Source of the DNA: Candidatus Methanoplasma cognatum
Lineage (GTDB): Archaea > Thermoplasmatota > Thermoplasmata > Methanomassiliicoccales > Methanomethylophilaceae
NCBI GenBank assembly: GCA_009777615.1
Contig: WRLM01000006.1
Location: forward strand, 1-64,000
Direction: 5' to 3'
DNA length: 64,000 bases
Shown piece after piece: positions 3,001 to 37,500 of the stretch; the first letter of the stretch is position 1, and the number at the start of each line of letters is the position of its first letter. Position numbers and translations under genes: made by a program. The notes beneath the pieces are model-generated. The model saw only the letters and a list, made by a program, of their open reading frames with translations, was not told the DNA's origin and ran no database searches.

Positions 3001-6000
3001 TGGCTCAGATTATAGAAGCTTCCGCTTCCGGTCGTGGTGAGCTGGGAGGCGCGGACCATATAATACCGTGTGCTTCCGGGATCCGCATGGGTCCAATCTG
3101 TTCCCTGTACGATAGCAAGCCGCGTATAGGGCCCGTCCTTGTTCGTCGCGCCGTATATGTAGTAATCTGTGATCGCGCTGTCCGCAGAAGCGGTCCACTG
3201 CAGATGCGTTCCGTTCGTTGTGCCGCTTGCTTGCAGGTCTGTAGCGGGCAGTACGGGATACATATGCAGCGTTGGGTCCCCTATGAGATTTATGTGGGCA
3301 TTGCTAACATTACTAATATAGGGTGTGTTGGGGCTGCCGTATGGGGATGTTCCGGTGATTATTCCGTAATTGTTCTGCGTCAGCATGACGCTGTAACCGA
3401 TAGTTTCCCCCAGCGCCATATGATGGAAGTACCAATCCGGCCGTCCGACCCAGGCGCTGGCGAGTCCATAATCCGATGTGGCGATGAATGCGCGCAGAAG
3501 ATTGTCCTGTCTGTCAAAGTCCACAAAGTAACTGCCAAGGACCTGGGCGAAGATTATGCCGAAGTTCTGCGAGGATGCAATGGTGCTCGTTGTAAGCGTA
3601 CCGCCAATGGCGCCTACGCTCGTGTAAGTGCCGCCTCCGGCAATATGCGCCCATGTGTATGTGTTCTGCGAGAGGTGTTGCGACCACGATCCGGCGTCTA
3701 TTCTTGCACCCGGTCCCCATAATGTTGGGAAAAGCCTGTAGGCATTATCTGAGACGCTGTTCACGGTCCCCGCAAACCCATCCGAGATCAAAGCGTCCTT
3801 GGTCGTGGTCATCTGACCGATCCTGTACTGATGGTCTTTGTTCAGATACTGCCGCAACAGCTCCGTGGCATCCTTTGAGAAAGCGGGCATATTGTTGAAA
3901 TCCACCCTTCCGACTTGCAGCTGCACTTCCCGGATGGTCGAATTGGATGAATCCCAAGGCGCAGCTACAGCCCCATAATACAAGTCCGACGGTAACGGGC
4001 GGGGGTCATGTCCGTCGGGTGCGAAATTGGCGGTTCTGAGAACAGGTATATGACCCAATAAGAACACAGCTTTGACATTAGCTGGGTCCGCATTGTAATC
4101 CGCCTGCACCAAGGCCCGCGCCGATTCCGGCGTCGCGTTCCTTGATACATCATGGCGCAGTACTCCCCAGCCATCGCCGATCAGGTCATTCTTAAGGGTC
4201 TCGATCTCAGCGCTCAGCGCTGCCGCCTGTTCGGCCTCTACAAGCAGTACGACCTTGCCGCGGTATTCCACGGCCGGTATTTTTATGCCGGTACTGATGT
4301 AACCCGCATCGCTGAAGATGTTGCTGCCGTTGACACAGTATTCGTATATCTGGCCGACGGTTACGTTCGTATCCACATAAAAGGTTGCATCGCTGCTAAG
4401 AGTAGCGATCGGCGGTCCCCACTCCATTGCGTCCTTGTCTTTCCGGTAGACATCATAGCGGCCAAGATCATACGGCACCTTGCCGGGCCACTCCACCCGG
4501 ATCGTTGCAGGAGATTCACTTACCTGGGCGCTTAACGCCAATACAGAAATAGTATCATTCAAGGCGAAATTGATATTGGACACCGACGCTGTGTAAGGCG
4601 CCGAGGGTATTGATCCGGATACCACCAGATAATTCGCCCTGACGACACCGGTTATAATGACCGTTTGCCCGACATTCGCCGTTATGGTGTATGTTCCATC
4701 GGCGGCATTCATATATGATTCTGCCAGGGCTCCGGTGCAATATATGGTCACTCCGCTGAGACCGACGGAAGTTCCGCTGAGGGACACCCTGCCGGATACC
4801 GTGAATGTGTCATGTCTCATGGTGAAGTTGACGTCGGACGCATCTGTTGTGTACGACGCTGGTACCGTTCCTGAGATCCGGGTGTGGTAAAGCTTAGAAA
4901 CCCCTGTTATTGTTACGGTCGAGCCGGCATTCGCCGTTATGGTGTATGTGCCGTCCGCTGCCGTGACGTATGAGGCCTCCTGGGCTCCGGTGCAGTAGAT
5001 GGCTACGTCGCTTATGCCCGCGGAAGTTCCGTCAAGGGTCACCTTGCCGGACACTGTGTATGTGGAGGCCGCTTCCGCTATCACGCCTTGGCTCAGATTA
5101 TAGAAGCTTCCGCTTCCCGTTACGGTAAGTTCGGAAGCGCGGACCATATAATACTGCGTGCCTCCTGGATTTGTATGGGTCCAGTCGGTTCCCTGTACGA
5201 TGGCGAGCCGCGTGTAGGGTCCATCCTCGTTCGACGCGCCGTACACGTAGTAGTCGGCGACCCCGCTGTCAGCAGATGCTGTCCACTGCAGATACATTCC
5301 GTTCATCGTGCCGCTGGCCTGCAGATCTGTTGCCGGCAGTACCGGGTACATCCGCAGAGTGGGGTCCCCCATCAGGTTTATGTGAACGAAGTTACCGTTT
5401 ATGCCGGCGTAAGGATAACCTGTTATGGTAAAGGGGAAGACTCCTCCTGTGTTGTTCTGTGTCAGCCTGGCGCTGTAACCGATGGTCTCTCCCAATCCCA
5501 TGTGGTGGAAGTACCAGGACGGCCTTCCGACCCAGGCGTTGGTAAGCCCGTAATCAGGTGTGGCGAGGAATGCGCGCAGAAGGTTGTTCTGCGTGTCCCA
5601 CTCCACGAAGTAACTGCCGAAGGTCTGGGCAAAGATTATGCCAAAATTCTGTGAGTTGGCGATGGTACTCGTAGTAAGCGAACCGCCGGTGGCGCCGACG
5701 CTCGTGTAGCTGCCCCCTCCGGCGATGTGCGCCCATGTGTATGTGTTCTGAGACAGATACGACGACCACGATCCGTCATCTATCTGCGCGCCTGGCCCCC
5801 ATAATGCGGGGAAAAGCCTGTAGGCATTATTGGAGACGCTGTTCGTAGACCCAGCGAATCCGTTCGCGACAAGAGCATCCTTGGTCGTGGTCATCTGACC
5901 GATCCTGTACTGATGGTCTTTGTTCAGATACTGCCGCAGCAGTTCCGTGTCGCTCTTTGAGAAAGCGGGCATATTATCGAAATCTACCCTTCCCACCTGC

Positions 6001-9000: not shown

Positions 9001-10148
9001 AACTCAAAGCCGTTCTTTACGGTCGGCTCGATGATAGTCCCTTCTCCGAACTCGTTCCAGCAGTGCAGCATTCCGATGCCTTTCGTTTGGTCGTAGTTGT
9101 TGACTATTGCGGCGTATCCGTCGCGCAGGTGCGATTCAAACTCATCCGGCGTCGGCGTACAGATCTTAGCTGTTTCCGCACCTCCGAGTCCTCCCCAGGA
9201 CGGGATCCTCTCCCAGCCTGCTGTCATCGGTACAAAATAGGTCATGTTGGGGTAGGTCTTTAAGATCCATTCCCATTGAATGACGTAAGCTTCGCTGAGC
9301 TCCTCATAATTTTCCGCGCCGGGGTTGGCAACATTGGTGTAAGGGGTGCCTTCCACGCCGCGGTGGTTGAAATAAGCCGTAATGGCGTCGGCCCCTGCGG
9401 ATACGGTGAAGTCAAACCAATACGAATACGGCTCGACACACATCACAAAGTATATGCCGTCCAGCCCACGTTCCTTCGCCCTGTCCCGTGCATGATCAAG
9501 CATTTCGGCGGCCGTTATACCAATGGCTTGGGCCTGCTCTCTGAGGCCGGCTGGCTCAGCGGTCGTACCGCCCCCGTCCGAAAAGATGTACATTACAGGT
9601 TTGTTGTCTATCTGCAGATATTCTGGATTGCTAAAGTGTTCATCGATCCAATAATCGATCATTTCATTCCATTCGTCGATCGATGTCGGCGACGGGAAAC
9701 TTTCGTGGTTGCACCAAAGCAGAGAGTAAGAAACAAGGTCCCGATTTTCCGCTTCGAGGTAAGCGCGGACTGCGGGGTTGATTATGTCCGGATTGACGCC
9801 CGGTATCCAATACCAGGCCATTGACATGAAGTCTATTCCATAATCAGCCATCCATTCGATGTGCTGCTCCATCGCCCCCACATCGCGGGACTCATACCAG
9901 CCCGCTAACGGTTCTCTGTCCGGGCTGTACGGCTTGATCTTATCCCATGTGTGTAGTCCCAAGACATTCAGGGCTATGGGATCGGGTTCAGCGGTCCACT
10001 TCCCAAAATAGTACATGCCGAGCATGACATCGTCGTCAACGACCGCCGCATCATTCGTTTGAGACTGATGGACGATCCCTCCAATGAACAGCAGCGCTGA
10101 TATCAGCACTGTTGCCAGTATAAGCTTGGATCGAGTTATTTTTTTCAT
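1..10148 (-). CDS. Giant secreted multidomain protein with GH99/WbsX-like barrel, C25-like modules and beta-helix (partial, C-terminus beyond window)
   Basis: An open frame starts at ATG 10148, after the SD-like run AGGGGGG with a 5-nt spacer, and continues off the left edge (at least 3382 codons). I checked the frame at about 9.06, 7.98, 6.14, 4.06 and 1.95 kb. Residues 1-34 are a signal peptide (MKKITRSKLILATVLISALL). Residues about 42-390 resemble the GH99/WbsX-like glycan-processing barrel, ending in WNEFGEG near residue 363. Next come two InlB-type repeats (FDANGGEG near residue 475), then three copies of a fibronectin/C25-peptidase-like/fibronectin module (about 8480-2985) separated by carboxypeptidase-regulatory-like domains (SGKVSVDG). 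A beta-helix with NYGTI/NNGTV motifs lies at about 2330-800, then an ASH-like domain and one more regulatory-like domain. Likely an extracellular glycan-binding or adhesive protein; the substrate is unknown. Confidence 0.88.
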   Translation of the reverse strand, partial: MKKITRSKLILATVLISALLFIGGIVHQSQTNDAAVVDDDVMLGMYYFGKWTAEPDPIALNVLGLHTWDKIKPYSPDREPLAGWYESRDVGAMEQHIEWMADYGIDFMSMAWYWIPGVNPDIINPAVRAYLEAENRDLVSYSLLWCNHESFPSPTSIDEWNEMIDYWIDEHFSNPEYLQIDNKPVMYIFSDGGGTTAEPAGLREQAQAIGITAAEMLDHARDRAKERGLDGIYFVMCVEPYSYWFDFTVSAGADAITAYFNHRGVEGTPYTNVANPGAENYEELSEAYVIQWEWILKTYPNMTYFVPMTAGWERIPSWGGLGGAETAKICTPTPDEFESHLRDGYAAIVNNYDQTKGIGMLHCWNEFGEGTIIEPTVKNGFEFLERIQDVFRSGQEISATYTINYEMYYGTPPVASQTKGYNEQITLDQTQPVRSGLLFMGWGYDGGTAVYQPGDLFIENRNRTLYAVWHAKISFDANGGEGAPDYITRPYVSAPTILPSEIPTRSGHVFLGWSEDPNAAAPTYQQGGDYTKLITVPVMLYAVWEEIRGAEYPPNADDVIMLNAIVSESPAEIRLEWLSKGPYNLSRYDVYRKSKDAAAWGQPIAILSSSATYYVDTNVTVGQIYEYCVNSSTSFYDAGYITAGIKVPAVEYRGKVVLLVEAEQAAALSAELETLKNDLIGDGWTVLRHDVSRNATPESAKALVLADYNADQANVKAVFLFGHIPVFRTGNFAPDGHAARALPGDSYYGTMTASWDLSPGRIPGTVQLQVGRVDFDNMPAFSKSATELLRQYLNKDHQYRIGQMTTTKDALVANGFAGTMNSVSDNAYKLFPTLWGPDAQIDDGSWSLYLSQNTYTWGHIAGYGNYTNVGAAGGTLYTSTIANSQNFGMIFAQSFGSYFLDFDTENNLLRAFLATPDYGLTNSWVGRPAWYFHHMGLGETIGYSTRMTQNNTGGVSSPLSGYPYVGITGNYAHINLMGDPTLRMYPVLPAADLQTNYAPNGMHLQWTASADNDVTDYYVYGASNKDGPYTRLAIVQGTDWTHTNPGGTQYYMVRASELTTTGSGSFYNLSQGVIAEAASTYTVSGKVSVDGTTNGLSGVTITCTGALEASYITAADGTYAITANAGSTVVITGITKAEYVRASGTIPSASYTTVASNVDFTMKPEQVYPPNADNVVMLSAVVSESPATIRLEWPSKVPYNLDRYDVYRKSKDSNAWEPIASLSIDATYYVDTNVTVGQIYEYCVTGSGSFYDAGYVCAGINVPAVEYRGAVVLLVEAEQAAALSAELETLKNDLIGDGWTVLRHDVSRNATPESAKALVLADYNADPANVKAVFLFGHVPIFKSGSLGPDGHSFRSFPADTYYGTMTASWDLSPSRIPGTVQLQVGRVDFDNMPAFSKSDTELLRQYLNKDHQYRIGQMTTTKDALVANGFAGSTNSVSNNAYRLFPALWGPGAQIDDGSWSSYLSQNTYTWAHIAGGGSYTSVGATGGSLTTSTIANSQNFGIIFAQTFGSYFVEWDTQNNLLRAFLATPDYGLTNAWVGRPSWYFHHMGLGETIGYSARLTQNNTGGVFPFTITGYPYAGINGNFVHINLMGDPTLRMYPVLPATDLQASGTMNGMYLQWTASADSGVADYYVYGASNEDGPYTRLAIVQGTDWTHTNPGGTQYYMVRASELTVTGSGSFYNLSQGVIAEAASTYTVSGKVTLDGTSAGISDVAIYCTGAQEASYVTAADGTYTITANAGSTVTITGVSKLYHTRISGTVPASYTTDASDVNFTMRHDTFTVSGRVSLSGTSVGLSGVTIYCTGALAESYMNAADGTYTITANVGQTVIITGVVRANYLVVSGSIPSAPYTASVSNINFALNDTISVLALSAQVSESPATIRVEWPGKVPYDLGRYDVYRKDKDAMEWGPPIATLSSDATFYVDTNVTVGQIYEYCVNGSNIFSDAGYISTGIKIPAVEYRGKVVLLVEAEQAAALSAEIETLKNDLIGDGWGVLRHDVSRNATPESARALVQADYNADPANVKAVFLLGHIPVLRTANFAPDGHDPRPLPSDLYYGAVAAPWDSSNSTIREVQLQVGRVDFNNMPAFSKDATELLRQYLNKDHQYRIGQMTTTKDALISDGFAGTVNSVSDNAYRLFPTLWGPGARIDAGSWSQHLSQNTYTWAHIAGGGTYTSVGAIGGTLTTSTIASSQNFGIIFAQVLGSYFVDFDRQDNLLRAFIATSDYGLASAWVGRPDWYFHHMALGETIGYSVMLTQNNYGIITGTSPYGSPNTPYISNVSNAHINLIGDPTLHMYPVLPATDLQASGTTNGTHLQWTASADSAITDYYIYGATNKDGPYTRLAIVQGTDWTHADPGSTRYYMVRASQLTTTGSGSFYNLSQGMIAETVYPFGTYTVSGRVTLEGTSAGVSEATISCTGALAGSYITAADGTYTITASAGSTVVITGVSKNYYTMVTGTIPASYTTDASGVNFTMSHNTFTVSGKVTINGTSAGIGGATITCAGALMTSYTTAADGTYTITANAGSMVVITSVSLAYHVLVSGTVPSASYRTNASDVNFTVEQASYGYVNVDGSPGTHGALMVDQAYFDLMFFSSSRYEMNGSDAAATGGWYYLAEDALIAGTLFITGDVSIIIADGCTLTVTGSVNIGSIRTFAVYSEHLPPVPSIGKVSSGNQTVLGSGSKLINTAHIVTNAGNGIILQYTGEIINGVTGTLQSMGGPVIFLTSTSGGKITNYGNIASGGYDAMSVGAGAEINNYGTITGSNGISLTGNGSSTIMNWGTISGNVAIAIDSGNVAIENKSGGYIGVGNITYGISAIGGSLQLTNEGTISGAGNGVYVAQSSSATIHNYGMIRVYSSPYQSYANYGIIHTSSVPCNITNYAGGGIEGYRGGINIASGAITNNGTVTGTQTNGTQTNGYGAGILAGNGEVTITNGAGGEIQGKTYGIYASAASSSSFAVSNSGTIEGEAADGIYTTRRVTITNEEGAEIKGGGNGILTGTLSATFNNYGLITGNVTLDDTTNTVQFGAGSQIIGNFTIGMGRSSFGFTGTLDQSFTYSTVTGNAFVGDGNTMVAFDDTALPSTYAGETIILIGGGTVSGASQNDTYVGGTHTYNILIKNNQFIAQIAAYGIEVVPGSWDFGTANVGYGSISANAMSVNNVGNLPTGDLSITPVSGSTSSFTLSSTSIGSIPDGGSGGFTVKPNDGLPVGTYTAVFAVGPAAGNTNSVSPVTFTVTFTVNQDAFTVSGKVSIDGTSVGLSGVTITCTGALAASYTTAADGTYTITANAGSAVVITGVSMTDYILMSGTVPSASYTASASDVNFTMRVAESGYTYVDVDGTLKTHASVTRINQSYFSTMDGNLTGYNTVDGWYFVEDDIVLDHL
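2985..8480 (-). repeat. Three tandem copies of a C25-peptidase-like module
   Basis: Copies lie at about 8480-6925, 6665-5070 and 4565-2985. The same landmark recurs near 8074, 6231 and 4146, so the periods are about 1843 and 2085 bases. The extra roughly 240 bases between copies 2 and 3 match one additional carboxypeptidase-regulatory-like domain. Each copy encodes a VVLLVEAEQ strand, a GH[VI]P motif, PDGH, YYGTMTASWDL, VGRVDFDNMPAF, the segment SYFLDFDTENNLLRAF, FHHMGLGE and HINLMGDPTLRMYP. The order resembles C25-like domains coupled to fibronectin domains in giant secreted bacterial proteins. The position where C25 peptidases carry the catalytic cysteine reads AQSFGSY, so the modules look non-proteolytic. 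That last step is inference. Confidence 0.8.
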
Positions 10149-10215
10149 TTAAACCCCCCTGTATATCTCCGTTTTGTCACAAACGAGAACACGGATTTTT
10201 TCAGTACTCTATATC

Positions 10216-10234
10216 TAATTATATAATATATAAA
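10216..10234 (-). promoter_or_regulatory. TATA-rich archaeal promoter of the first giant gene
   Basis: On the minus strand this reads TTTATATATTATATAATTA, about 70-85 bases upstream of the ATG at 10148. It fits an archaeal box A followed by a leader with a Shine-Dalgarno run. An imperfect inverted repeat (TTCCATAC, 7 bases, GTATGAA) lies just upstream at 10253-10274 and could be an operator. Confidence 0.55.
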
Positions 10235-10792
10235 CGGCTCACTTTTAGTCAATTCCATACATATCCAGTATGAAAAATTTCAACACAATCAATAGAGAAA
10301 TTTTGACAGAATAATCATATCCTGTTGACATCTCGCCGCATAAAAAAACAAAGTCTTCCTTTATCGCCCTTTGCGCTCATTCATCCCCCGGTATACCTGC
10401 GGCATGCGCTCTGTTCCTTACTCTTCCGGTGACCTCTCCGGTCGCTTTTCGGCTCCGCTGCTCTCCGGAAAAGGAGTTCGCGATCGGTGGGAAACGCCCA
10501 ATTCATACTTCACCCCTGCACAATCAGATGGGGGTTCTGGAACAGCATGTCTGCGATGCGGACGGCGTTAGCATTATCTTTATTCCCTATTGATTTAGTA
10601 TGATAATCCAGTAGCTTTGAGAAGGTTCTCATTGAAGACGCTGTCTGGAATCGCATTTAAGAAAATGACTCAAAAGAACCCTGTGTCTGTTTACCCCGCC
10701 ATTAGCCATGCCCGCATTTGCTTCTGTTACCATTACGATCCAATGGCCTCTGTCCGTATTTTTAATCCTAAAAGAATGTCCTATACAAAATA
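10235..10792. other. Intergenic stretch between the giant gene and marR
   Basis: Apart from the giant gene's promoter and the inverted repeat at 10253-10274, I see nothing assignable here. The sequence turns GC-rich at about 10370-10570, then AT-rich towards marR. Short frames exist but none has a recognisable protein, a convincing ribosome site or family-like composition. I found no tRNA or known structured RNA. Confidence 0.5.
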
Positions 10793-10823
10793 ACTTATAT
10801 AGTAAATTGCTAATGCCGTTAGC
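10793..10823 (+). promoter_or_regulatory. marR promoter with possible operator
   Basis: A TATA-like ACTTATATA sits at 10793-10801. It is followed by the inverted repeat GCTAA (10809-10813), 5 bases, TTAGC (10819-10823), where the transcription start would fall. MarR proteins commonly repress their own promoter by binding such palindromes. Autoregulation is inferred, not shown. Confidence 0.45.
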
Positions 10824-10882
10824 TAAATAAGGGGGTGTGAGGGACGGACTATAGTGATCTTGCGAAAGAGTTCATACAGAAC

Positions 10883-11272
10883 ATGCGGACGGTTCAGATA
10901 GTGAGCAGACAGAAGCGTGTCCAGGAGGGCATCGGAAGCGAGGCTTTCATTCTCCACTGCATCAACGAAAATCAAGGCAGGACCGTTCCCAGTCAGATAA
11001 GCGACGAAATGGGCATCAGCTCGGCCCGCGTCGCCACTGCTCTGAACAGCCTTGAGGACAAAGGTCTCATCACACGCGAGATCGACGTCGGCGACAGGCG
11101 GAAGATAATCGTCAAACTGACGCCGAAGGGCAGAGACCATGTGGAAGAATGGCATAAGAAACTACTTGAAAAATTGACGAACGTCCTTATGCAGATCGGA
11201 GAAGAGGATGCGAAGGAACTGGTTCGTATCACCGGTAAGCTCACGGAGGTGCTTTCAAAGCCCCGGCCTTGA
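10883..11272 (+). CDS. MarR-family winged-helix transcriptional regulator
   Basis: 129 aa. It has a MarR winged helix: recognition-helix region SQISDEMGISSARVATALNS at about residues 37-56 and the wing motif DKGLITREIDVGDRRK, then a dimerisation helix. MarR proteins are dimeric, usually ligand-responsive repressors. The gene lies about 120 bases upstream of two ABC exporter genes on the same strand, a common arrangement for drug-efflux control, so it probably regulates them and itself. The start is uncertain: the frame stays open upstream and would encode a plausible DYSDLAKEFIQN extension back to a TGA, but that part has no ATG, GTG or TTG. ATG 10883 is therefore the first usable start. Confidence 0.9.
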   Translation: MRTVQIVSRQKRVQEGIGSEAFILHCINENQGRTVPSQISDEMGISSARVATALNSLEDKGLITREIDVGDRRKIIVKLTPKGRDHVEEWHKKLLEKLTNVLMQIGEEDAKELVRITGKLTEVLSKPRP

Positions 11273-17507: not shown

Positions 17508-18311
17508 TTACCGGATATTTCTGGTCTGAAGCGCCTTTACAAGCTTGTTTATCATTTTATCTTCTTTCCGATAGATCGCGGTGATGGAATGTCTCAGGAC
17601 CTTCGGATCCACCGCGCTTTTCATTTTGATCCCTTTCCTCAGCAAAAGGAACTCGTCGACGAAGTAACTCTTCTTAGAACCCAGAAGCTCCGGGAGGGAG
17701 AATGTCTCCGATTCGATACTGTATTTCCTGTCCATTGTGTCAAGGAACATGAAAGCTACCCTCTGGGCGCCGTATCTGTATCTTATGAACGATGTCCCGT
17801 TATCGACGAACACCATCCCCATGTAGCCTATCTCCGTGCCGTCGAACTCGTCCGCGTCGAACAGATACAAGGGATCGTCTATGACGGCGAAATCCGCGAG
17901 GTTCTCCTTCATCATCCTGATGTTATGCTTGTCGTCAGATATGACGAGTTCGACGTCCGTCATCTTCAAAGCGGAAAGGACGGACATCATCAGGTCCTCC
18001 GTGACCGGACTGCAGCAGATAGTGAAATTATGATCGTCCGAACATCTGAGCTCGGTGGTGACATAGGTCTCCAGTATCAGCCTGCCGTCGTCATTCAGCT
18101 TTGTCCCGGCCGGCGTGGAGATCGTTATAGGCGAGCCTGCCGCTTCCTCGATCGCCGAAATGTATCTGTGAACGACCGGGACCGATATGCCCAGCGCCTT
18201 GGCGGCGGCCGTCTTGCTCCCTGTCCTGGCAACGGCAGCCAAGGTCTCCAGCTGGCGGTTGGTCACCAGACGGCCGTTGATCATCTGCTCTGTCCTTACG
18301 GATATCTCCAC
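17508..18311 (-). CDS. LysR/ModE-like transcriptional regulator with ligand-binding domain
   Basis: 267 aa from GTG 18311. An internal ATG at 18284 preceded by AAGGA is an alternative start (258 aa). Residues about 15-75 form a LysR/ModE-type winged helix: RQLETLAAVARTGSKTAAAK, then LGISVPVVHRYISAIEEAAG. The rest (about 95-267) looks like a degenerate substrate-binding domain (FTICCSPVTEDLMMSVLSAL, FAVIDDPLYLF) that would sense a small molecule. Such archaeal regulators are poorly characterised. It lies 79 bases upstream of hdrC on the same strand, so it could respond to energy-metabolism status. That is inference from position only. Confidence 0.75.
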   Translation of the reverse strand: MEISVRTEQMINGRLVTNRQLETLAAVARTGSKTAAAKALGISVPVVHRYISAIEEAAGSPITISTPAGTKLNDDGRLILETYVTTELRCSDDHNFTICCSPVTEDLMMSVLSALKMTDVELVISDDKHNIRMMKENLADFAVIDDPLYLFDADEFDGTEIGYMGMVFVDNGTSFIRYRYGAQRVAFMFLDTMDRKYSIESETFSLPELLGSKKSYFVDEFLLLRKGIKMKSAVDPKVLRHSITAIYRKEDKMINKLVKALQTRNIR

Positions 18312-18829
18312 GCAACGTTATCTCAGACCATGCGGATAAGTTTTATTCTTCGGGCCATATTCAGGAATCCCATAAAACTTCATCCACAACACCATGGGAC
18401 TCTCTCTTTGCATGATCTCACTCATCTATCGTCCAGAAACATGCCAAAGCCCTAATGCCAAGTCATTCAAAGCCATTGTCCTGGATATAAACGCAAAGGA
18501 CACCTCCACGGTGCGAACAAAACGATATTTTGGGACACCAGAATTAAGAAACATAATTTTTATGAGCAAGAGTTAAAATAGTATTAAAACCATGTGTGGC
18601 CATGCGGTTGATTTTTGGTCCAGACTACTTGAAGTGGGGCGCGAATACCAACGATCCACTATGTGAGCCTTTTGCACCAAACACATGCACCTCTTTCAGA
18701 CCTGAAAGGAGAGAGTCTAACTGCAGTCAAGGTTTTGCACCAAACACATGTACATCGTTGCAATAAAAAATTCCAGGCGATAATACGTTGCACACTATCC
18801 AATAGTGATGCGCGGTGTTGATATAATAA
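18312..18829. other. Intergenic region with an 18-bp direct repeat at the edge of the AT-rich island
   Basis: The sequence TTTTGCACCAAACACATG occurs identically at 18670-18687 and 18733-18750 (period 63 bases). Several tiny frames exist, including a 24-codon plus-strand frame at 18592-18666 and minus-strand frames that begin inside each repeat copy, but none is recognisable. From about 18540 the base composition becomes AT-rich. The repeat pair could be a regulatory site, a duplication scar at the island edge, or a remnant of a mobile element. Confidence 0.5.
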
Positions 18830-19420
18830 TTATTTAGTCCACATGTTCAACTCATAACGCGGCAGAGTATCATAATAATCATTTAATAATTTTTTTTGTT
18901 TTCCTTTATGGCTATAAATATCTATGACCACATGGGGCCTCTCTTCTATTTTTGTAATTGTAACTTTTGCTCTCCACAAAGAGGTGTTCTCGGCGGATAT
19001 TCTTAAAAAATACAGAGCGATGTCCGTTTCATTACAACATGTAGCAAATTCTGCAGTGAAGTTGTTATGCATGCCTCCCAAATTATAGTTCAGCACCCCC
19101 CCGGGGTTGATTCTTTCTATTAGGCTTTTTTCTGTTTCCCTCGGAGGGAGACCGACTTTCATTTTCTCTGCTGTGACATCGCCATAATTAAAATATAGTC
19201 CTTGTATGGCACTATTGACAGTGAGTTTGCCTATGACCTCTATGCCCACTAATAAATTTTCCTTTTCCTCATCATTCACATCGGGGCATCTAAAAAATCT
19301 TGTTTTATATCTGGGGGATCTGGAATTTTTCCACGATATCCACATTCCAAATAACATTACAATTAAAGCAATATATCCTGATGAACCAATCGCATCATTG
19401 ATAAAAGATAGAATGTCCAC
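18830..19420 (-). CDS. Membrane-anchored protein of unknown function in the radical SAM island
   Basis: 196 aa. One N-terminal transmembrane helix (about residues 14-31, YIALIVMLFGMWIS) is followed by a soluble, probably beta-rich domain with paired cysteines (FATCCNE near residue 127). I do not recognise the family. The composition is strongly AT-rich like its two upstream neighbours, and it follows the second radical SAM gene by 82 bases on the same strand, so it probably belongs to the same transferred unit. Possible roles are an anchor for, exporter of, or protection against a modified peptide; no motif decides between these. Confidence 0.7.
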   Translation of the reverse strand: MDILSFINDAIGSSGYIALIVMLFGMWISWKNSRSPRYKTRFFRCPDVNDEEKENLLVGIEVIGKLTVNSAIQGLYFNYGDVTAEKMKVGLPPRETEKSLIERINPGGVLNYNLGGMHNNFTAEFATCCNETDIALYFLRISAENTSLWRAKVTITKIEERPHVVIDIYSHKGKQKKLLNDYYDTLPRYELNMWTK

Positions 19421-19502
19421 GCTTCATTACTTCACTATATATTAATAAAATTATTTATTTTTTTGAACTGTTTTGGGTAAACTTGTAGATAGAAAAAATT
19501 CT

Positions 19503-20762
19503 TTAACGTGTCTTTAAATCTTGCTCTTTGATTTTATTTTTTGCAATAATTTTCAAAATATCTTGTATTATGTCCTTGTAAGTGTGACATCTTGCTGACT
19601 CGTGCTCTCTATCATATTTGGCCTTGCATCCCCCTCCACAAATCGGTAACAGTGAGCATGAATTACACCTCAAATCAATGATTGGTTCTGACCAATCCAT
19701 AATCATTTTACTGTTTATTTCAAGGGGATCTATACTGCCAACCACCTTTTCCTTTATACCAACGAGGATTGGACATTTTGTAATAGTTCCATCTGTATAA
19801 AAAATAAAACTGTTTTTATCACACATAAACCTACAATATGCGGGCTTTGGAGTTAGATTAAAGTATTCTTTATCTCCACTAAACCCTGTTTCGTCAATTT
19901 TTTTTACTACTTCCAAAAGGTTGTGTGAGTTATCTATTTCCGGGCCTTGTTCATAACATTCTGTGCTAAATAACAAGGCGGGCCGAATCGACACATCTTC
20001 TTTTGAAAAATTACGCCCGATATAATCTATTAGGTCTAAAATGGAGTTGACATTACTCTTCCCTATATTTAGCCTAAAAGTCACTTTTAAACCGGAATCT
20101 ATTACACTTTTAGCATTTTTTATTATGCTTTCAAAACTTATTTCTGGCGAGTCGAATTTTTTTATTTTTGTGTGAAGGGCACCATAACCATCCAACGGAA
20201 CTTGAACACTTTTCACACTCCATTTACTAAACTTATCTATTATCTCTTTTGTAAGTAAGGAGCCATTGGTGACTATTGCTGAGTCATATTCCATTTTTTC
20301 GTCCGAAATTGATTTGCATATTTTGCTTATGATATCTGGTCGAAGAAGCGGCTCGCCACCAGAAAATGTTAGATGAGTGTTGTCCTTACGGTGAGATATT
20401 ATAAAGTTTATTATTTTATCAACGGTTGCTCCTGACATTTCTGCCATGCCAACAGTGTTGGCGGCATAACAATAGTCACAATTCGCATTACAAGAATTAG
20501 TTATGTGTATCCAATAGCTTGTGTCAGAATAACGAACGTCTCTTAGGTCTTGTTGATCAATCCATGATTCGTATTTGTCTGTCGTAAAAAACCCCATTTT
20601 TACAATGTCAGACTCTTCGTCTAGAACCACACTTTCTTTACTTAGAAGTAAAGTCTCCACAGGATCAAATATCGCCATTGCCCCTGTTTTCGAGTTAAAA
20701 ATAATCGTGCCAACTTCATCCTTTGACAAGATATTATATTTTGATGGGTGGTACACTCTCAT
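19503..20762 (-). CDS. Radical SAM/SPASM peptide-modifying enzyme (PqqE/MoaA-like)
   Basis: About 420 aa. The ATG at 20762 has GGA 9 bases upstream; a TTG two codons earlier (20768) is an alternative. Residues 1-90 form a lead-in domain (YHPSKYNILSKDE) like the peptide-recognition regions of RiPP maturases. The radical SAM cluster motif is CNANCDYC near residue 94, with TFSGGEPLLRP in the S-adenosylmethionine site. The C-terminal SPASM region has CRFMC, CPIL, CNSCSLLPICGGGC and CH, enough for two auxiliary [4Fe-4S] clusters. SPASM enzymes typically crosslink or otherwise modify residues of ribosomal peptides. The substrate is not identified. A second SPASM enzyme lies just upstream. Confidence 0.88.
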   Translation of the reverse strand: MRVYHPSKYNILSKDEVGTIIFNSKTGAMAIFDPVETLLLSKESVVLDEESDIVKMGFFTTDKYESWIDQQDLRDVRYSDTSYWIHITNSCNANCDYCYAANTVGMAEMSGATVDKIINFIISHRKDNTHLTFSGGEPLLRPDIISKICKSISDEKMEYDSAIVTNGSLLTKEIIDKFSKWSVKSVQVPLDGYGALHTKIKKFDSPEISFESIIKNAKSVIDSGLKVTFRLNIGKSNVNSILDLIDYIGRNFSKEDVSIRPALLFSTECYEQGPEIDNSHNLLEVVKKIDETGFSGDKEYFNLTPKPAYCRFMCDKNSFIFYTDGTITKCPILVGIKEKVVGSIDPLEINSKMIMDWSEPIIDLRCNSCSLLPICGGGCKAKYDREHESARCHTYKDIIQDILKIIAKNKIKEQDLKTR

Positions 20763-20828
20763 TAACAATCCAATAATAGTTATTAAATAAAATCTTAACT
20801 CTGAGTCTTTTTGTAAATTTCGCCTTCT

Positions 20829-20903
20829 TTAACAAAAAAATTTGATGCCCGATAGCCTGAGCAAAAGGGAGAAAGAGCGTGCAGCGCTTTTGTTTCTGGT
20901 CAT
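20829..20903 (-). CDS. 24-codon mini-ORF between the two radical SAM genes (candidate precursor, speculative)
   Basis: The frame starts at ATG 20903, which overlaps the TGA of the upstream radical SAM gene (ATGA), so translational coupling is possible. It encodes a 24-residue peptide beginning MTRNKSAARSF and ending GIKFFC: basic, serine-rich, with a single terminal Cys. It ends 66 bases before the second radical SAM start. Its DNA is locally more GC-rich than the flanking island, so it could also be an RNA element or chance. No leader-core pattern is evident. Confidence 0.25.
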   Translation of the reverse strand: MTRNKSAARSFSLLLRLSGIKFFC

Positions 20904-22078
20904 TTTGTTAATCCCATTGCTTGTTTAAAAAAAGGGTTAAGGTCCATATGATCATCCATAGCATAGTAAAAGTCATTTACTTTTCTAATAATGTGGCCCA
21001 ATAGTTTTTTGTTTATATAACATGTAAAGGAGACGCCATCATCGGTCTTCCTATTCCGTAACTCTCCATTGATACGCCCACCTTGACAATATTTATACAA
21101 CTCACAACTTCCAATACATTTTTCTCCTTGACACTTGGAATAAACTAACATTTTCTTGAAGCCGTCTGAGTTAAACACTTCATCGATTGTGCTAAAATTA
21201 TGGATATTTCCATAGTAAAAAGAATCCTCATAACACATATTGCACAGTTCTAACTCTCCAGAGGGATCCACACACATCCATTTACCATGACATGATGTGT
21301 TTGAACATGATGTGTCTTTATTTTCTTTTATCGTTCGGATATTGCTAAAAAACGGTTCCACAGATATGCCATCTTTATCACTTATCCAATATTCAAAGAA
21401 ATCAATCATTTTTTCAGTATACTTTTTTATATCAAGCTTTAGAACCTCATTTTTTTTCGCAAACCCTTCTTCGACAAGGGGATTTAGCTGTAAGTTCTGT
21501 ATTCCTTCTTCTTTGAATGATTCATAAGTTTCGATAAGTCTATCAACATTGACTCCAGAAACAACTGAAATTGCGCCAACAGACATCCCGTGTGATAACA
21601 GTTCTCGGTAACCTTTCAAAAAATCGTCTTTGTTTCCTCTTAAGTAGTCATGGTTGCGACCATCGAACGAGGTCCCGCATCCGAAATTGTTTTCATGGAG
21701 AAATTTTGCAAATTCTGGCGTAACGAGTGTACAATTTGTTTGCACGTTGTTTCTCACTTCTGTATTATTAATGGTAGCGTATTGTTTTTGTAAACTTATC
21801 GCCTTTTTATAAAAATCAAGGCCAACAATCAATGGCTCACCCCCGTGCCATAAAAACTGAACCTTGGAATACTCTGGAATGACCATTCTGAAAACCTTTT
21901 CCAGCGTATCGTCGCTCATAATTTTTTTATCAAATCCTGTCTCAGAGCGATAACAATATTTACACCTCATGTTACAGAAATACGTTGGTATAAGCGTGAC
22001 ACTCATAACGGCATTTTTCTCAGCAACCATATGTGTATATATTAATACTATTCTATTATTCTTTTCAGTTATTGACAA
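20900..22078 (-). CDS. Radical SAM/SPASM enzyme (anSME-like)
   Basis: 392 aa from TTG 22078, or 376 aa from ATG 22030. The radical SAM motif is CNMRCKYCY near residue 34, followed by QFLWHGGEPL and NNVQTNCTL, close to the anSME/SPASM group of peptide and sulfatase maturases. The C-terminus has cysteine clusters CSNTSCHGKWMCVDPSG, CNMCYE and CQGEKCIGSCELYKYCQGG, with a final Cys in SFTCYI, consistent with two auxiliary clusters. There is no sulfatase gene in the window, so peptide modification is more likely than sulfatase maturation. It is the first gene of an AT-rich minus-strand group and diverges from the hydrogenase maturation protease gene. Confidence 0.87.
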   Translation of the reverse strand: MSITEKNNRIVLIYTHMVAEKNAVMSVTLIPTYFCNMRCKYCYRSETGFDKKIMSDDTLEKVFRMVIPEYSKVQFLWHGGEPLIVGLDFYKKAISLQKQYATINNTEVRNNVQTNCTLVTPEFAKFLHENNFGCGTSFDGRNHDYLRGNKDDFLKGYRELLSHGMSVGAISVVSGVNVDRLIETYESFKEEGIQNLQLNPLVEEGFAKKNEVLKLDIKKYTEKMIDFFEYWISDKDGISVEPFFSNIRTIKENKDTSCSNTSCHGKWMCVDPSGELELCNMCYEDSFYYGNIHNFSTIDEVFNSDGFKKMLVYSKCQGEKCIGSCELYKYCQGGRINGELRNRKTDDGVSFTCYINKKLLGHIIRKVNDFYYAMDDHMDLNPFFKQAMGLTK

Positions 22079-22095
22079 TTTTTGCCTAATATGCT

Positions 22096-22123
22096 CCCTT
22101 AATAAAATTTTGTTTTTTAAGGG
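22096..22123. promoter_or_regulatory. Inverted repeat between divergent radical SAM and maturation protease genes
   Basis: CCCTTAA (22096-22102) and TTAAGGG (22117-22123) are separated by 14 AT-rich bases. The element sits between two divergent starts (22078 minus, 22168 plus), so it could be an operator or a structured leader. Confidence 0.35.
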
Positions 22124-22167
22124 GCCTCATTCACATAGCAACCAATAATAAAGAAGACAGATTTAAG

Positions 22168-22668
22168 GTGGATGTGGCGAAGCTTGCAGATAGGATAGTT
22201 GTTATCGGCCTTGGAAGTCCGATCATGTGCGATGACGCCGTCGGGCTCAAGGTATCGGAGGCCGTCGAAGCGCTGGGACTGCCTGATGTGGATACGCTGC
22301 AGGAGGCCGTTGGCGGACTGGATATAATCCCTATGGTCTCCGGATACAGGTACGCGGTGATCGTGGACGCCATACAGACCGGGGAATATGAACCGGGCAC
22401 CGTGCTCATCTTCGACCCGGAAAGCTTTGACTGCACCGTGGCGGACGTTCCGGCGCATGATGTCAACCTAGCTACCGCGATAAAGATGGGGAGACAGATG
22501 GACAACAGCGTTATGCCTGCGGTGATCAAATTCGTCGCGATAGAGGTTGCGGACCTCCGGACGGTCAGCGAAGAGATGACCCCTAAGGTTGCGGCGGCCG
22601 TAGATCCGGCAAAGAACGCCGTCCTCCACCTGCTTGCCGGATTCAGAGATCCAGATCCGAGTTATTGA
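22168..22668 (+). CDS. Hydrogenase maturation protease (HycI/HyaD family)
   Basis: 166 aa from GTG 22168. The family hallmark is at the N-terminus: VVIGLGSPIMCDDAVGLKV, where the Asp binds nickel of the hydrogenase large subunit. Further conserved positions include VDAIQTG near residue 72 and HDVNLATA near residue 93. The enzyme clips the C-terminal tail of the [NiFe] hydrogenase large subunit after nickel insertion. Here its client would be an Mvh-type or similar hydrogenase that feeds heterodisulfide reductase; no hydrogenase gene is in the window. Its 3' end overlaps the convergent M16 peptidase gene by 26 bases. Confidence 0.88.
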   Translation: MDVAKLADRIVVIGLGSPIMCDDAVGLKVSEAVEALGLPDVDTLQEAVGGLDIIPMVSGYRYAVIVDAIQTGEYEPGTVLIFDPESFDCTVADVPAHDVNLATAIKMGRQMDNSVMPAVIKFVAIEVADLRTVSEEMTPKVAAAVDPAKNAVLHLLAGFRDPDPSY

Positions 22669-31579: not shown

Positions 31580-34500
31580 TTAACTCACCTCCATAGAGTA
31601 CTCCGCATGGAGAAAGCTGTTTAACTCAAAAACATATCTTGTACCATCGTCTGACGTGAGCGACGCATGGCGTGTTACGTTTATCGCCGATACTTTATAG
31701 ACTGTTCCGCCTGAAACCACTCCTTCATATGTCGTACCGTTTAATACCGCAGATATCACATAATCTGCCCTTATCCACACAGTTCTGTCATCAAATTCCA
31801 CAAACACGAGTTGTCTACCTTCTACATCTACCACTTCACACGGTTTGCCGCTTAATCCCGCATAATAGAGTTTGCCATTTAACTCCACAACAGGTACATG
31901 AGTCCAATATCCTTCATACCCTACAACATGCCAGCCGTTATTCCCCCAAGTTCTAACAATTGTACTATTTTCGGGCTGTTCTCCTAGTTCCCAGCGATTC
32001 CATGTTGCTTCACAATAATAGTAATCAGTCCCATCGTAATTCGTGGGGAGTCTGCCAGCTACATTGGGGTTTAGCGCAACGCCAGCCGTAAGATGAATAC
32101 CAACTGAACCATCATTATGCAAAACCTCTACCCAATGTATCACATATCTGTAATTCATTGCTCCAATCAAAGATACGAAAAGGAGTACGTGGTCCTCGCA
32201 GTCGCCTATATTTTCTGTGAGGGTCTCTGCTGGCAACCTCCAATAATCTGGCGTTATGTGGTCGCCTTCTTCGTTGTCATAAGGGATATTTTGAACAAAC
32301 CTTAGTACGAAATTAATGCGATCAACGTCCCTCCAGCCATCGGTGATTTCATTAAACGCTCTTGCTATGTCTCTTATTATTTGATCATCGGATCTTATAT
32401 AGGTGTTCAAATCATCATAATGGGGCGATCTTTTTATTTCTGTATTTAACGCTTCTTCATACCACCTTAAAGACATCTGAGGAACATCCATTCGTGCAGT
32501 ACCATTGTTTATTAATAATCGAACATTATTAATTTCCACTTCTCTATTAGGAGTAAGTAAGCTATTTGCATAAGTCCATGTAAAGGTTGGGTTGGCCCAA
32601 TAATAAGTTTCGTATGACAGCTCATAATATCCATTTAGGTTGATGAGAGTTATAGTATGTCTGATTATAAAAGCACCTATTGAGCCATAATCATAACTGG
32701 CGCCCCAATCAGATGTGCTATTGTACAGTATATTTCCATTAGTGTCGCTAATCGTCCAAATCCTTTGGCTGATTTCGTCATTACTATTGGTTGGTGTCAT
32801 TGTAATGACTGTAGGCGTTGAATTTTGCGTTGTGACCGTGAAATACGCCGGATGTGAAAATCTCCCCTCGATTATCATATCCCTGTTGACATTGAAAGTG
32901 GGGAGCCATGGAGTTGTAGCCCACTGTTCACCCCCCATATCAATCCGATACCATCCTTCAAAGACCCATCCTGCATTTAATGTGTTATTCGAAACTACGC
33001 AATCGAACTCGTAATACCCTGAGTTTCCGTCATTGACCCAGCCACCTATAATCCGTAAACCTCCCGCATCACCAACCTCACTGGGAGTGGTATAAACCTT
33101 TATTGTATAGCATTGGATGGTGAAATCCTGTGTGAAGTCACCTGTCGCGCTACCGTTCTCTATGGTGGCTGTGACGATCACTTTGCCGGATCCACTCGTC
33201 CAAAGGGTGTTGCCGATGATGGTTGCCCCCGTAGTTCCCTTGTCCTTGACATACCAGTTTATGGTCTTGTATGTGGTGTTGGAGGGGGCCACCGTTCCGG
33301 TCAGACGCAGCGATATTCCCGCCACCGTCACTTGCGGAACTCCGGTGATGCCCGTCACATATACAGGCGTCATGACGATGTCAAAGTCCTGTGTATATGG
33401 TTCACCGATTGCAGCACCGTCGGTTATAGTGGCCGTAACGGTCACCGTACCGACTCCGGTCGTATTGAGTCTGTTGGTGTTAGTGATCGTCGCCCCAGTA
33501 GTTCCCGGATACTTGACCTCCCAAGCGATGGTCTTGTTCGTTGCGTTGGTGGGTTCCACTGTTCCAATCAGGGTCAGCTGTGTTCCCGCTGTTGCCGTTG
33601 TCGGAATTCCTGTGATATTCGTCACTGGCACCGGTTCCACTCTGATTGTGAACTCTTGTGCATATGGCATACCGCCGCCGGCGCCATATGCGATCGTGGC
33701 CGTCACTATGGCTATGCCCGATGTGGTTGTGGATAATGTGTTTCCGCTTATGGTCGCTCCGGTAAGTCCTCGTACAGACCATGATATGGTCTGGAACGTG
33801 GCGTCTGACGGGTCCACCGTTCCAGTAAGAGTCAGAGGCGTTCTGACGACAGCCGCCGAAGGCACTTCCGATATGCTCGTTACAGGTACAACTACGCCGT
33901 ACTTCACGATAATAGCATCCTGGTTGCCTTTTGTCGTTATGCCCGCCCAGTCGCCGGAATTGAATGTGGCTGAATACCCAACGGCGACAACACCACCAGG
34001 TATGGCCATCACTGAGTAATAATAATCAACGCCGGAACCACCGAAGTTCTTCTTCCACACCGCATTGCCATCGTTATTGTACTTCACGATGATTGCATCG
34101 TAGTTTCCTTTTCCGGTGACACCTGTCCAATCTCCATTGCCGAATGCATTGGAATACCCAACAGCGATAACGCCGCCCGGTACCGCTGTCACTGAATTAT
34201 ATGCATCTATGCCGTTCCCGCCAAAGTTCTTCTTCCATACCACATTGCCGTCGTTGTCGTACTTCACGATGATCGCGTCTTGGCTGCCTTTTGTCGTTAT
34301 GCCCGCCCAGTCGCCGGAATTGAATGTGGCTGAATATCCAACAGCGATAACACCGTCATGTACCGCCGTTACCGACTGATAAGTGTCGATGCCCGAACCA
34401 CCGAAGTTCTTCTTCCACACCACGTTGCCGTCGTTGTCGTACTTCACGATGATCGCGTCTTGGCTGCCTTTTGTCGTTATGCCCGCCCAGTCGCCGGAAT

Positions 34501-37500
34501 TGAATGTGGCTGAATACCCGACGGCGACAACGCCGTCAGGTACCGCCGTTACCGACTGATAAGTGTCGATGCCCGAACCACCGAAGTTCTTCTTCCACAC
34601 CACATTGCCGTCGTTATCATACTTAACAATAATCGCATCTTGGTTGCCCTTACCTGTTACGCCCGCCCAATCGCCGTTACCAATCGTGGCTGAATACCCG
34701 ACAGCGATAACGCCGCCCGGTACCGCTGTAACTGAATTATATGCATCTATGCCGTTCCCGCCAAAGTTCTTCTTCCATACCACATTGCCGTCGTTATCGT
34801 ACTTCACGATGATCGCGTCTTGGCTGCCTTTTGTCGTTATGCCCGCCCAGTCGCCGGAGTTGAATGTGGCCGAATATCCAACGGCGATAACACCATCATG
34901 TATCGCCGTTACCGACTGATAAATATCATTACCTGAACTTCCGAAATTCTTTCTATAAATTTCATCCAATGGGGCAAGGTTGTCCCTTGATTCTATAATG
35001 AAATCCTGCACATATGACGTACCGTCCGCATTGCCTTTTTCAATCGTGGCCGTCACGGTCAACGTTCCCGATCCGGTCGTCGAGAGGATGTTACCATTAA
35101 TCGTCGCTCCGGTTGTACCATAGTTCTTAATGGACCATGATATGGTCTGGAACGTGGCGTTTGACGGGGCCACCGTTCCGGTCAGGGTCAGAGGCGTCCC
35201 GGCGACAGACTCTGTGGGAACGCCTGTGATGTCCATGACAGGAATCACTGGTGCCGCCACTGTGATCGTGAAGTCCTTTGTGTATGGTGTGCCAACGGCT
35301 ACGCCGTCGGCAATGGTGGCCGTCACGACGACTGTGCCTGCCGCTGTTGTGGATAATACGTTTACGCTGATGGATGCTCCCGTTGTTGAACTGGGACTCT
35401 TAACTGACCATGATATGGCCTTGTTTGTCGCATCGGCGGGGACCACCGTTCCGGTCAGGGTGAGAGGCGTCCCGGCGACAGCCGCTGTGGGAACGCCGGC
35501 GATATCTGTAACTGGAACAGTGTTTGCTGTCGCTACCGATAACCTTGCCTCGATCGTGATATCTCCATTGACCATAATACTACCAGTATTTTGTACGGGC
35601 CATCCGCCTTGGAACATATTGGCCCCTTCGCAATACCATCCATCAAAGACCCATCCCTCGTCCGGCGTAACTACAAAGTCAATTCTCGTTCCGGCGGTGG
35701 CCCAGCCAACGATCGCTGACTCGGTGGTCGCTACTTGATTTGCGCCACTGAAAACAGCCGACAGTATTCCCGCATTGACCGGGGAGACATAAATCTCTAC
35801 CCGGTACCCGCCTAAAGTGAGGGTGAAATCCTTCACGTAGTCTACACCTGGTGCGGTGCCGTTTGCGACGGTAGCTGTAATGACTGCCGTGCCGGTTCCC
35901 GTGGTGGATAGAGTACTGCCGCTGATGGTCGCTCCCGTTGTCCCTGCATTCTTGACAGACCACATTATGGTCTTATTCGTGGCGTTATTCGGAGACACTG
36001 TTCCGGCCAGGGTCAGAGGTATCCCTGCGACAGCCGTTGCGGGGACGCCGGCAATGTCCATGACGGGAATCACTGGTGCCGCCACTGTGATCGTGAAGTC
36101 CTTTGTGTATGGTGTGCCTACGGCTACGCCATTGGCTATGGTTGCCGTAACGGTAACCGTGCCGCCGGCGGTCGCGGATAGGATGTTCCCTGAAATCGCT
36201 GCTCCCGTTGTTCCAGCGCTCTTGATTGTCCATACAATATCCTTGTGCGTGGCGTTGGAGGGGACCGCTGCTCCTGTCAGAGTCAGAGGTATCCCTGCGG
36301 CTGCCGCAGAAGGCACCTCAATTATATCCGTGACGGGGATCAACGTCGGTAACGCCGATAATCTTCCCTCGATCGCGATATCTCCGTTGACTGTGAAAGT
36401 ATGCCAAGTGCTTACAGACCACTGGAAATCGGTGCCTCCCATATACCATCCATCAAAGGTCCATCCGTTACCCGGCGCAACTGCGCAATCGATCTCAGTT
36501 CCGGCGGCGACCCATCCGCTGTTCTCCTGGTTTTCGTTATTGTAATAAACGTTCAAGGTCCCGGCATCGCCTGGAGTGATGTAGATCTCTACCCAGTACC
36601 CGGAGAAAGAGATGGTGAAATCTTTCACGAAGTCTACGCCGGGCGCGGTGCCGTTTGCGATGGTCGCAGTAATGACCGCCGTGCCGGTTCCCGTAGTGGA
36701 AAGAGTACTGCCGCTGATGGCCGCTCCCGTTGTCCCAGCGCTCTTGACAGACCATGTTATGATCTTGTTTGTTGCGTTATTCGGAGATGCCGTCCCTGCC
36801 AGAGTCAGAGGTGTTCCGGCGACAGCCGTTGCTGGGACCCCGGTTATATCTGTGACTGGAACATTTTGTGTTGTTGCCGATAATCTTCCTTCTATTGTGA
36901 TATCTTTACTGACTGTGAAAGAGTACAGCTGGGACGCGGACAGTAAGGTGTTCCCCTCATACCATCCGATAAAGGTATATCCTTCAAAGGATCTGGCTTC
37001 GCATTCAAAGCTCGTTCCCTGATCGACCAGTGTGCTGGTCCTCCACAGCACTCCGGTGCCGCCCAGGGTCATAGAGGCCTCTACCCTGTATTTGTCGGAG
37101 GAGCAAGAGATGCTGAAATCCTTCACGAAGTCTACGCCGGGCGAGATGCCGTTTGCGATGGTGGCAGTCACGACTGCTGTGCCTGCCGCTGTTGTAGATA
37201 ATACATTTCCGCTGATCGTAGCTCCCGTTGTTCCGGCATTCTTAACAGACCATACTATGGCCTGGTTCGCTGCATCGGATGGTACTACCATTCCGGTTAG
37301 TGTCAGAGGTGTTCCGGCGGCAGCTATCGAAGACACTCCTGTTATGTCCACGACGGAAGCCAGAACCGTTACGCCATACTTTACGATAATCGCATCGGAG
37401 CCTCCTTTCCCTGCGGTGCCTGCCCAGTCGCCGTTACCGAATGTTTCTGAATATCCTCCTGCGACAATGCCGCCCGGTACTGCCGTCACTGATTGATAAT

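Follow-up and report, generated by a model that had tools for sequence, protein, structure and literature searches.

An AT-rich insertion with two SPASM radical SAM enzymes in Candidatus Methanoplasma cognatum, a possible peptide- or small-protein-maturation cassette

The window, by which we mean the whole 64,000-nucleotide stretch of Candidatus Methanoplasma cognatum DNA that was analysed, harbors an AT-rich block between a regulator gene and a protease gene (Table 1). GC content within the block (18500-22000) is 0.35-0.37, compared with 0.53-0.57 across most of the window (~0.55 around the block). GC3 follows the same pattern, with values of 0.32-0.37 for the three block genes and 0.66-0.77 for four neighbouring genes. 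On the minus strand the genes follow in the order rSAM1, rSAM2, P3; the two radical SAM genes bear the CNMRCKYCY and CNANCDYC motifs. A preliminary description, in which composition had been judged by eye, listed an AT-rich island, two adjacent SPASM radical SAM genes, a 196-aa membrane-anchored protein and an overlapping 24-codon mini-ORF, and all of these are borne out by the computed values and reading frames. The limits proposed there were 18600-22123; alignment with congeners places the edges slightly further out, at ~18350-22130. Elsewhere in the window, GC falls to 0.44 at 10000-11000, and genes for a MarR-type regulator and an ABC transporter lie downstream of this stretch. A second AT-rich dip (GC 0.40) holds the 3' end of the gene for a 3413-aa putative secreted repeat protein (31580-41821, minus strand), with GGSGxDYYxSVTAVPDGIVAVGYS repeats, Ig-like repeats and, by eye, a transglutaminase-like C-terminal region.

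Table 1. Features of the inserted block, its flanks and the comparable bacterial locus L083 (positions are those of the window; L083 rows carry that locus's own numbering)
Feature	Position	Strand	Remarks
ModE/LysR-like regulator gene	17508-18311		flanks block; 76-92% identity to congener copies
AT-rich inserted segment, ~3.8 kb	18350..22130	.	between ModE/LysR-like regulator gene and HycI-type protease gene
54-aa candidate precursor ORF, MRLIFGPDYLKWGANTNDPLCEPFAPNTCTSFRPERRESNCSQGFAPNTCTSLQ	18602..18766	+	FAPNTCTS twice
Alternative candidate, 47 aa	18659..18802	-	TTG start; CVWCK repeated; ends TAG; from ORF listing
P3, 196-aa orphan	18830..19420	-	GTG start; single N-terminal TM segment; C-terminal domain predicted to be cytosolic
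rSAM2, SPASM radical SAM peptide-maturase-like protein, 419 aa	19503..20762	-	complete seven-Cys SPASM motif
24-codon ORF, MTRNKSAARSFSLLLRLSGIKFFC	20829..20903	-	ATGA overlap with rSAM1 stop; from ORF listing
rSAM1, anSME-like SPASM radical SAM protein	20900..22006	-	ATG 22006 gives 368 aa, TTG 22078 up to 392 aa
HycI-type protease gene	22168-22668		other flank of block
L083 precursor-like CCCC peptide, MEIIDVKAMWEEMNEADEVKFKKQDALDWDDDWDDDCCCCSGGYSK	776-916		
L083 rSAM2-like gene	985-2217		26% identity to rSAM2
L083 rSAM1-like gene	2207-3325		28% identity to rSAM1

Alignment with congeners breaks off at ~18348 and picks up again at ~22137. In nine of the 16 sampled congeners (L057, L058, L060-L064, L070 and L072) the regulator and protease genes lie next to each other at an uninterrupted site, spaced by ~70-600 bp, and the same adjacency is found in a member of a different genus (L071). 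In the remaining sampled congeners, either the contig stops after the regulator or different genes come next, and a copy of the block is found in none of the 16. A 12-bp near-direct repeat, GGGCC(A/T)(T/C)ATTCA, marks both junctions (18352-18363 and 22122-22133; P ~0.02); no integrase, transposase or tRNA is seen within the block. Its composition, the empty site in nine congeners and the absence of a copy from sampled relatives together identify the block as a lineage-specific, horizontally acquired insertion, a well-supported conclusion that agrees with the acquisition by transfer suggested earlier. The block has so far been found in one species. Contamination is unlikely, since native genes flank the block on a single 103-kb contig; a chimeric assembly could still account for it. 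The host genome (1.62 Mb) is archaeal, carries a methyl-coenzyme M reductase gene and yields a PylS match above cut-off, as suits a methanogen of the Methanomassiliicoccales type.

The rSAM2 protein matches the Pfam Radical_SAM model (4.5e-19) and keeps the CX3CX2C, GGEP and seven-Cys SPASM motifs. Its top NCBIfam models, the TIGR04463, CefB, geopeptide and Clo7bot (CtpM) maturases, score 133-140 bits against cut-offs of 400-600. These enzymes share with rSAM2 a near-full-length alignment, an N-terminal KxSxYNI-like region and the seven-Cys motif, but they are only 26-30% identical to it and their types of precursor are absent from its surroundings. In a maximum-likelihood tree, rSAM2 sits on a long branch together with G050, L165 and L166 (support 93/85), nested in a group with L079, L083 and L097 (97/95). 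Short Cys-rich ORFs adjoin the rSAM2 relatives at all six of these loci; the one beside the archaeal G050 relative is MFDFFDDIDTELSACNCDSQCGQFAHCYGCDN. Judged by its best profiles and its placement in the tree, rSAM2 is a SPASM enzyme that resembles peptide maturases. A reading of rSAM2 as viperin or a defence protein was rejected, with the pVip model NF038283 scoring 68 bits against a cut-off of 180 and the PADLOC viperin match (72 bits) spanning only the common radical SAM core.

Relatives of rSAM2 are sparse. At E 1e-25, a search of 151 genomes returns, its own genome aside, only G050 (30% identity); a profile search over 400 genomes of the class finds matches in eight, the host included; and identity does not exceed 31% over the best segment at the 80 best rSAM2 loci in the genome collection. 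A single-protein scan of the genome contigs with rSAM2 yields no relatives. The G050 copy lies between a group II intron-type reverse transcriptase gene and a transposase-like gene. Several AT-rich stretches, namely L165 and L167 (a 467-kb IMG/VR contig), L166 and L039 (G050), combine maturases of the rSAM2 type with precursor-like ORFs that are short and Cys-rich and begin MKFFDE or MKTIKEA, and several of the source contigs are called viral.

The second enzyme, rSAM1, also matches Pfam Radical_SAM (4e-17). Its top solved relative is the anSME structure 4k37 (1.7e-27, 99.7 bits), and it aligns over nearly full length with both anSME and TIGR04083. Scores for TIGR03942, the anaerobic sulfatase-maturating enzyme model, and for TIGR04083, a methanogen peptide-modifying radical SAM model, reach 163 and 149 bits, below the respective cut-offs of 349 and 300. 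The CX3CX2C cysteines are present and seven of the eight auxiliary-cluster cysteines are kept. Two positions set rSAM1 apart from anSME in the alignment to 4k37. Asn280 takes the place of Asp277, the catalytic Asp of sulfatase maturases such as anSME, and Arg335 (codon CGT, 21074-21076) stands where anSME (Cys330) and the family-wide archaeal relatives described below have Cys. Cys255, Cys276 and Cys330 of anSME ligate auxiliary cluster I (PMC5715301), so the Arg in rSAM1 would imply either an open site in this cluster or its loss.

The replacement could also be a sign of decay, and as such it speaks against a working cassette. The block would then be what is left of a transferred cassette whose precursor has disappeared and whose rSAM1 has been damaged at an auxiliary-cluster ligand. 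Arg335 is a single base change away from Cys, the residue that all five aligned relatives carry at this position; a standard precursor is missing; and the failure to find the block in congeners hints at a possibly transient element. However, the three frames are long and intact, the other motif residues are kept, and certain SPASM clusters naturally do without one Cys ligand (PMC5715301). We regard decay as an unlikely explanation.

P3 has a hydropathy (KD) peak of 1.84 at residue 10, and positive residues after the N-terminal TM segment make a cytosolic location of its domain probable. Single-sequence AlphaFold models made in the analysis reach pLDDT values of 37 and 44, too poor for use. P3 has no Pfam, NCBIfam, PHROG or PADLOC match, and searches of IMG/VR, of plasmid and phage sequences and of 390 genomes from the phylum bring up no homologue; lacking known kin, it is assigned to the unit by position and composition. 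P3 contains Cys residues, which raises the alternative that a larger protein, either co-inherited P3 or a host protein elsewhere, is the substrate of both enzymes, with rSAM1 acting as an anSME-like protein maturase. Both the kinship of rSAM1 to anSME and the lack of a convincing precursor beside rSAM2 are compatible with this. Yet rSAM1 has kept neither the catalytic Asp of anSME nor one of the cluster cysteines, its TIGR03942 score falls well below the cut-off, and the kin of rSAM2 are peptide maturases, all of which makes a larger substrate improbable in our estimate.

Family-wide archaeal relatives of rSAM1 share 28-35% identity with it (~32%) and occur in 66 of 151 genomes, nearly always as a single gene per genome; the host itself carries one at C1:598673. 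A Cys-rich membrane-type peptide adjoins this gene in 29 of 30 loci, 26 by a strict C-terminal pattern and three with a CYWPF ending. These peptides (L002:1188-1484 on host C1, immediately upstream of the 598673 gene, and those of L004-L032) are ~86-190 aa long, end in WTYWPF, CYWPF or similar, and have no Pfam or NCBIfam match. As a RiPP finding, this pairing of a Cys-rich peptide with a widespread anSME-like gene may be better than the block itself. In viral contigs, a single-protein scan with rSAM1 gives no relatives, while a scan with the rSAM1 alignment gives five weak ones, the better of which have no rSAM2-type neighbour.

Across the sampled related archaeal genomes, the rSAM1 and rSAM2 types occur apart, and no sampled relative holds the pair. 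Likewise, no rSAM1-type gene appears in the stretches read around four further archaeal rSAM2 relatives found by profile (L255-L258). Together with P3, for which no homologue turned up wherever it was sought, this lends no support to the conserved archaeal cassette envisaged earlier. Among the 80 best rSAM2 loci, a relative of rSAM1 stands beside the relative of rSAM2 at L083 only, an operon of an uncultured Selenomonadaceae from red deer gut that joins a 46-aa CCCC peptide to both enzyme relatives. As in the block, the two enzymes lie in tandem; unlike the block, the locus has the order precursor-like ORF, rSAM2 type, rSAM1 type, lacks P3 and offers a clear CCCC peptide. This operon provides the strongest support for a single pathway involving both enzymes, albeit as one case at 26% and 28% identity. 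At E 1e-55, the 249 relatives searched of the L083 genome yield no further copy of the operon's rSAM1-like gene. We found no description of the operon in the literature searched, where the two-maturase pairing and its archaeal setting likewise appear undescribed; the kinds of enzyme themselves are known.

The preliminary description had named independent occurrence of the two enzymes as evidence against a common system, and apart is indeed how they are mostly seen, with the bacterial L083 as the one other pair. Their separation in related archaea, and the AT-rich TATA-like stretch that by eye lies upstream of each gene, would suit unrelated cargo, that is, two radical SAM genes and P3 brought together by chance in mobile DNA and serving no common pathway. 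Against this, an independent bacterial operon joins both types behind a precursor-like ORF, and the block genes share a strand and a tight order. Chance assembly is very unlikely in our judgement.

The short Cys-rich neighbours of the relatives predict a short Cys-rich ORF as substrate. Within the block, rSAM2 has beside it no Cys-rich precursor like those at the related loci, and none of three candidate precursor ORFs has a detected homologue. The 24-codon ORF, the kind of tiny neighbour that had been suggested as substrate, has a single Cys, whereas the peptides next to the enzyme relatives are Cys-rich. It has no family match, we found nothing that distinguishes it from chance, and little speaks for it in this role.

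A direct repeat of 27 nt lies in the plus-strand 54-codon ORF, with copies at 18670 and 18733 (24 of 27 positions identical, in-frame spacing 63). All three differences between the copies are synonymous third positions in this frame; by our own calculation, chance alone would place all three on third positions ~1 time in 27. The FAPNTCTS-repeat coding pattern is found in one of 151 genomes, that of the host. A 14-mer upstream of the ORF matches the region upstream of rSAM1 at 13 of 14 positions (pairwise P 0.003, with 15 pairs tested). The minus-strand 47-aa candidate in turn shares a 14-mer with rSAM2, which renders the promoter comparison ambiguous. The length of the 54-codon ORF is not significant for the region (P 0.41), and its base composition by codon position is unlike that of rSAM1, rSAM2 and P3. 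FAPNTC occurs in 13 stretches of viral contigs, below a rough chance expectation and in unrelated contexts. Read in the minus-strand CVWCK frame, the three differences are at first codon positions and two of them alter residues. The terminal TAG of this candidate may be read through, given the PylS match in the genome; allowing for pyrrolysine read-through reveals no better precursor. We rank the 54-codon ORF first as candidate substrate, with a likelihood well short of one half.

Overall, we consider it probable, with considerable reserve, that the two SPASM radical SAM enzymes of the block belong to a peptide- or small-protein-maturation cassette that arrived by horizontal transfer. The Cys-rich peptides beside relatives of both enzymes and the pairing in L083 make a modified-peptide cassette with two maturases the best reading. 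Peptide maturation, as in the modified-peptide system of the preliminary description, is in this way supported by association. Weighing against the cassette are the lack of a relatives'-type precursor beside rSAM2, the low identity of both enzymes to any relative (~26-35%), the orphan state of P3 and the occurrence of the pair at just one other locus, a bacterial one. Under the cassette reading, rSAM2 would be the principal peptide maturase; its N-terminal region would probably bind a leader, and its radical chemistry would install cross-links on a short Cys-containing core. The diverged anSME-like rSAM1 might add a second modification or be an indispensable partner, in the manner of TrnC and TrnD in thuricin CD, and P3 could serve as membrane anchor, in export or in self-protection.

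Radical SAM RiPP systems in which two enzymes cooperate on short precursors are known (PMC12093266). Thuricin CD resembles the block in its two adjoining SPASM-type radical SAM genes, at least one of them peptide-maturase-like. It differs in that both of its enzymes perform thioether cross-linking of known precursors, whereas the block has one anSME-like enzyme and candidate precursors. A more specific proposal, to which we give little credence, is an archaeal two-maturase peptide system. Here a peptide maturase and an anSME-like enzyme whose auxiliary cluster has an open site would together modify the repeated FAPNTCTS core, which the strand opposite to the enzyme genes encodes, and P3 would be their partner at the membrane. 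This would amount to a new RiPP class whose outline is common to rumen bacteria.

Characterised archaeal modified peptides are few (PMC12144867). If real, the block would be a methanogen's peptide-modifying cassette of two enzymes, as yet uncharacterised, to which a deer-gut member of the Selenomonadaceae has a counterpart. It would then open a route into methanogen peptide chemistry and provide a natural test of a SPASM enzyme that is missing one auxiliary-cluster ligand.
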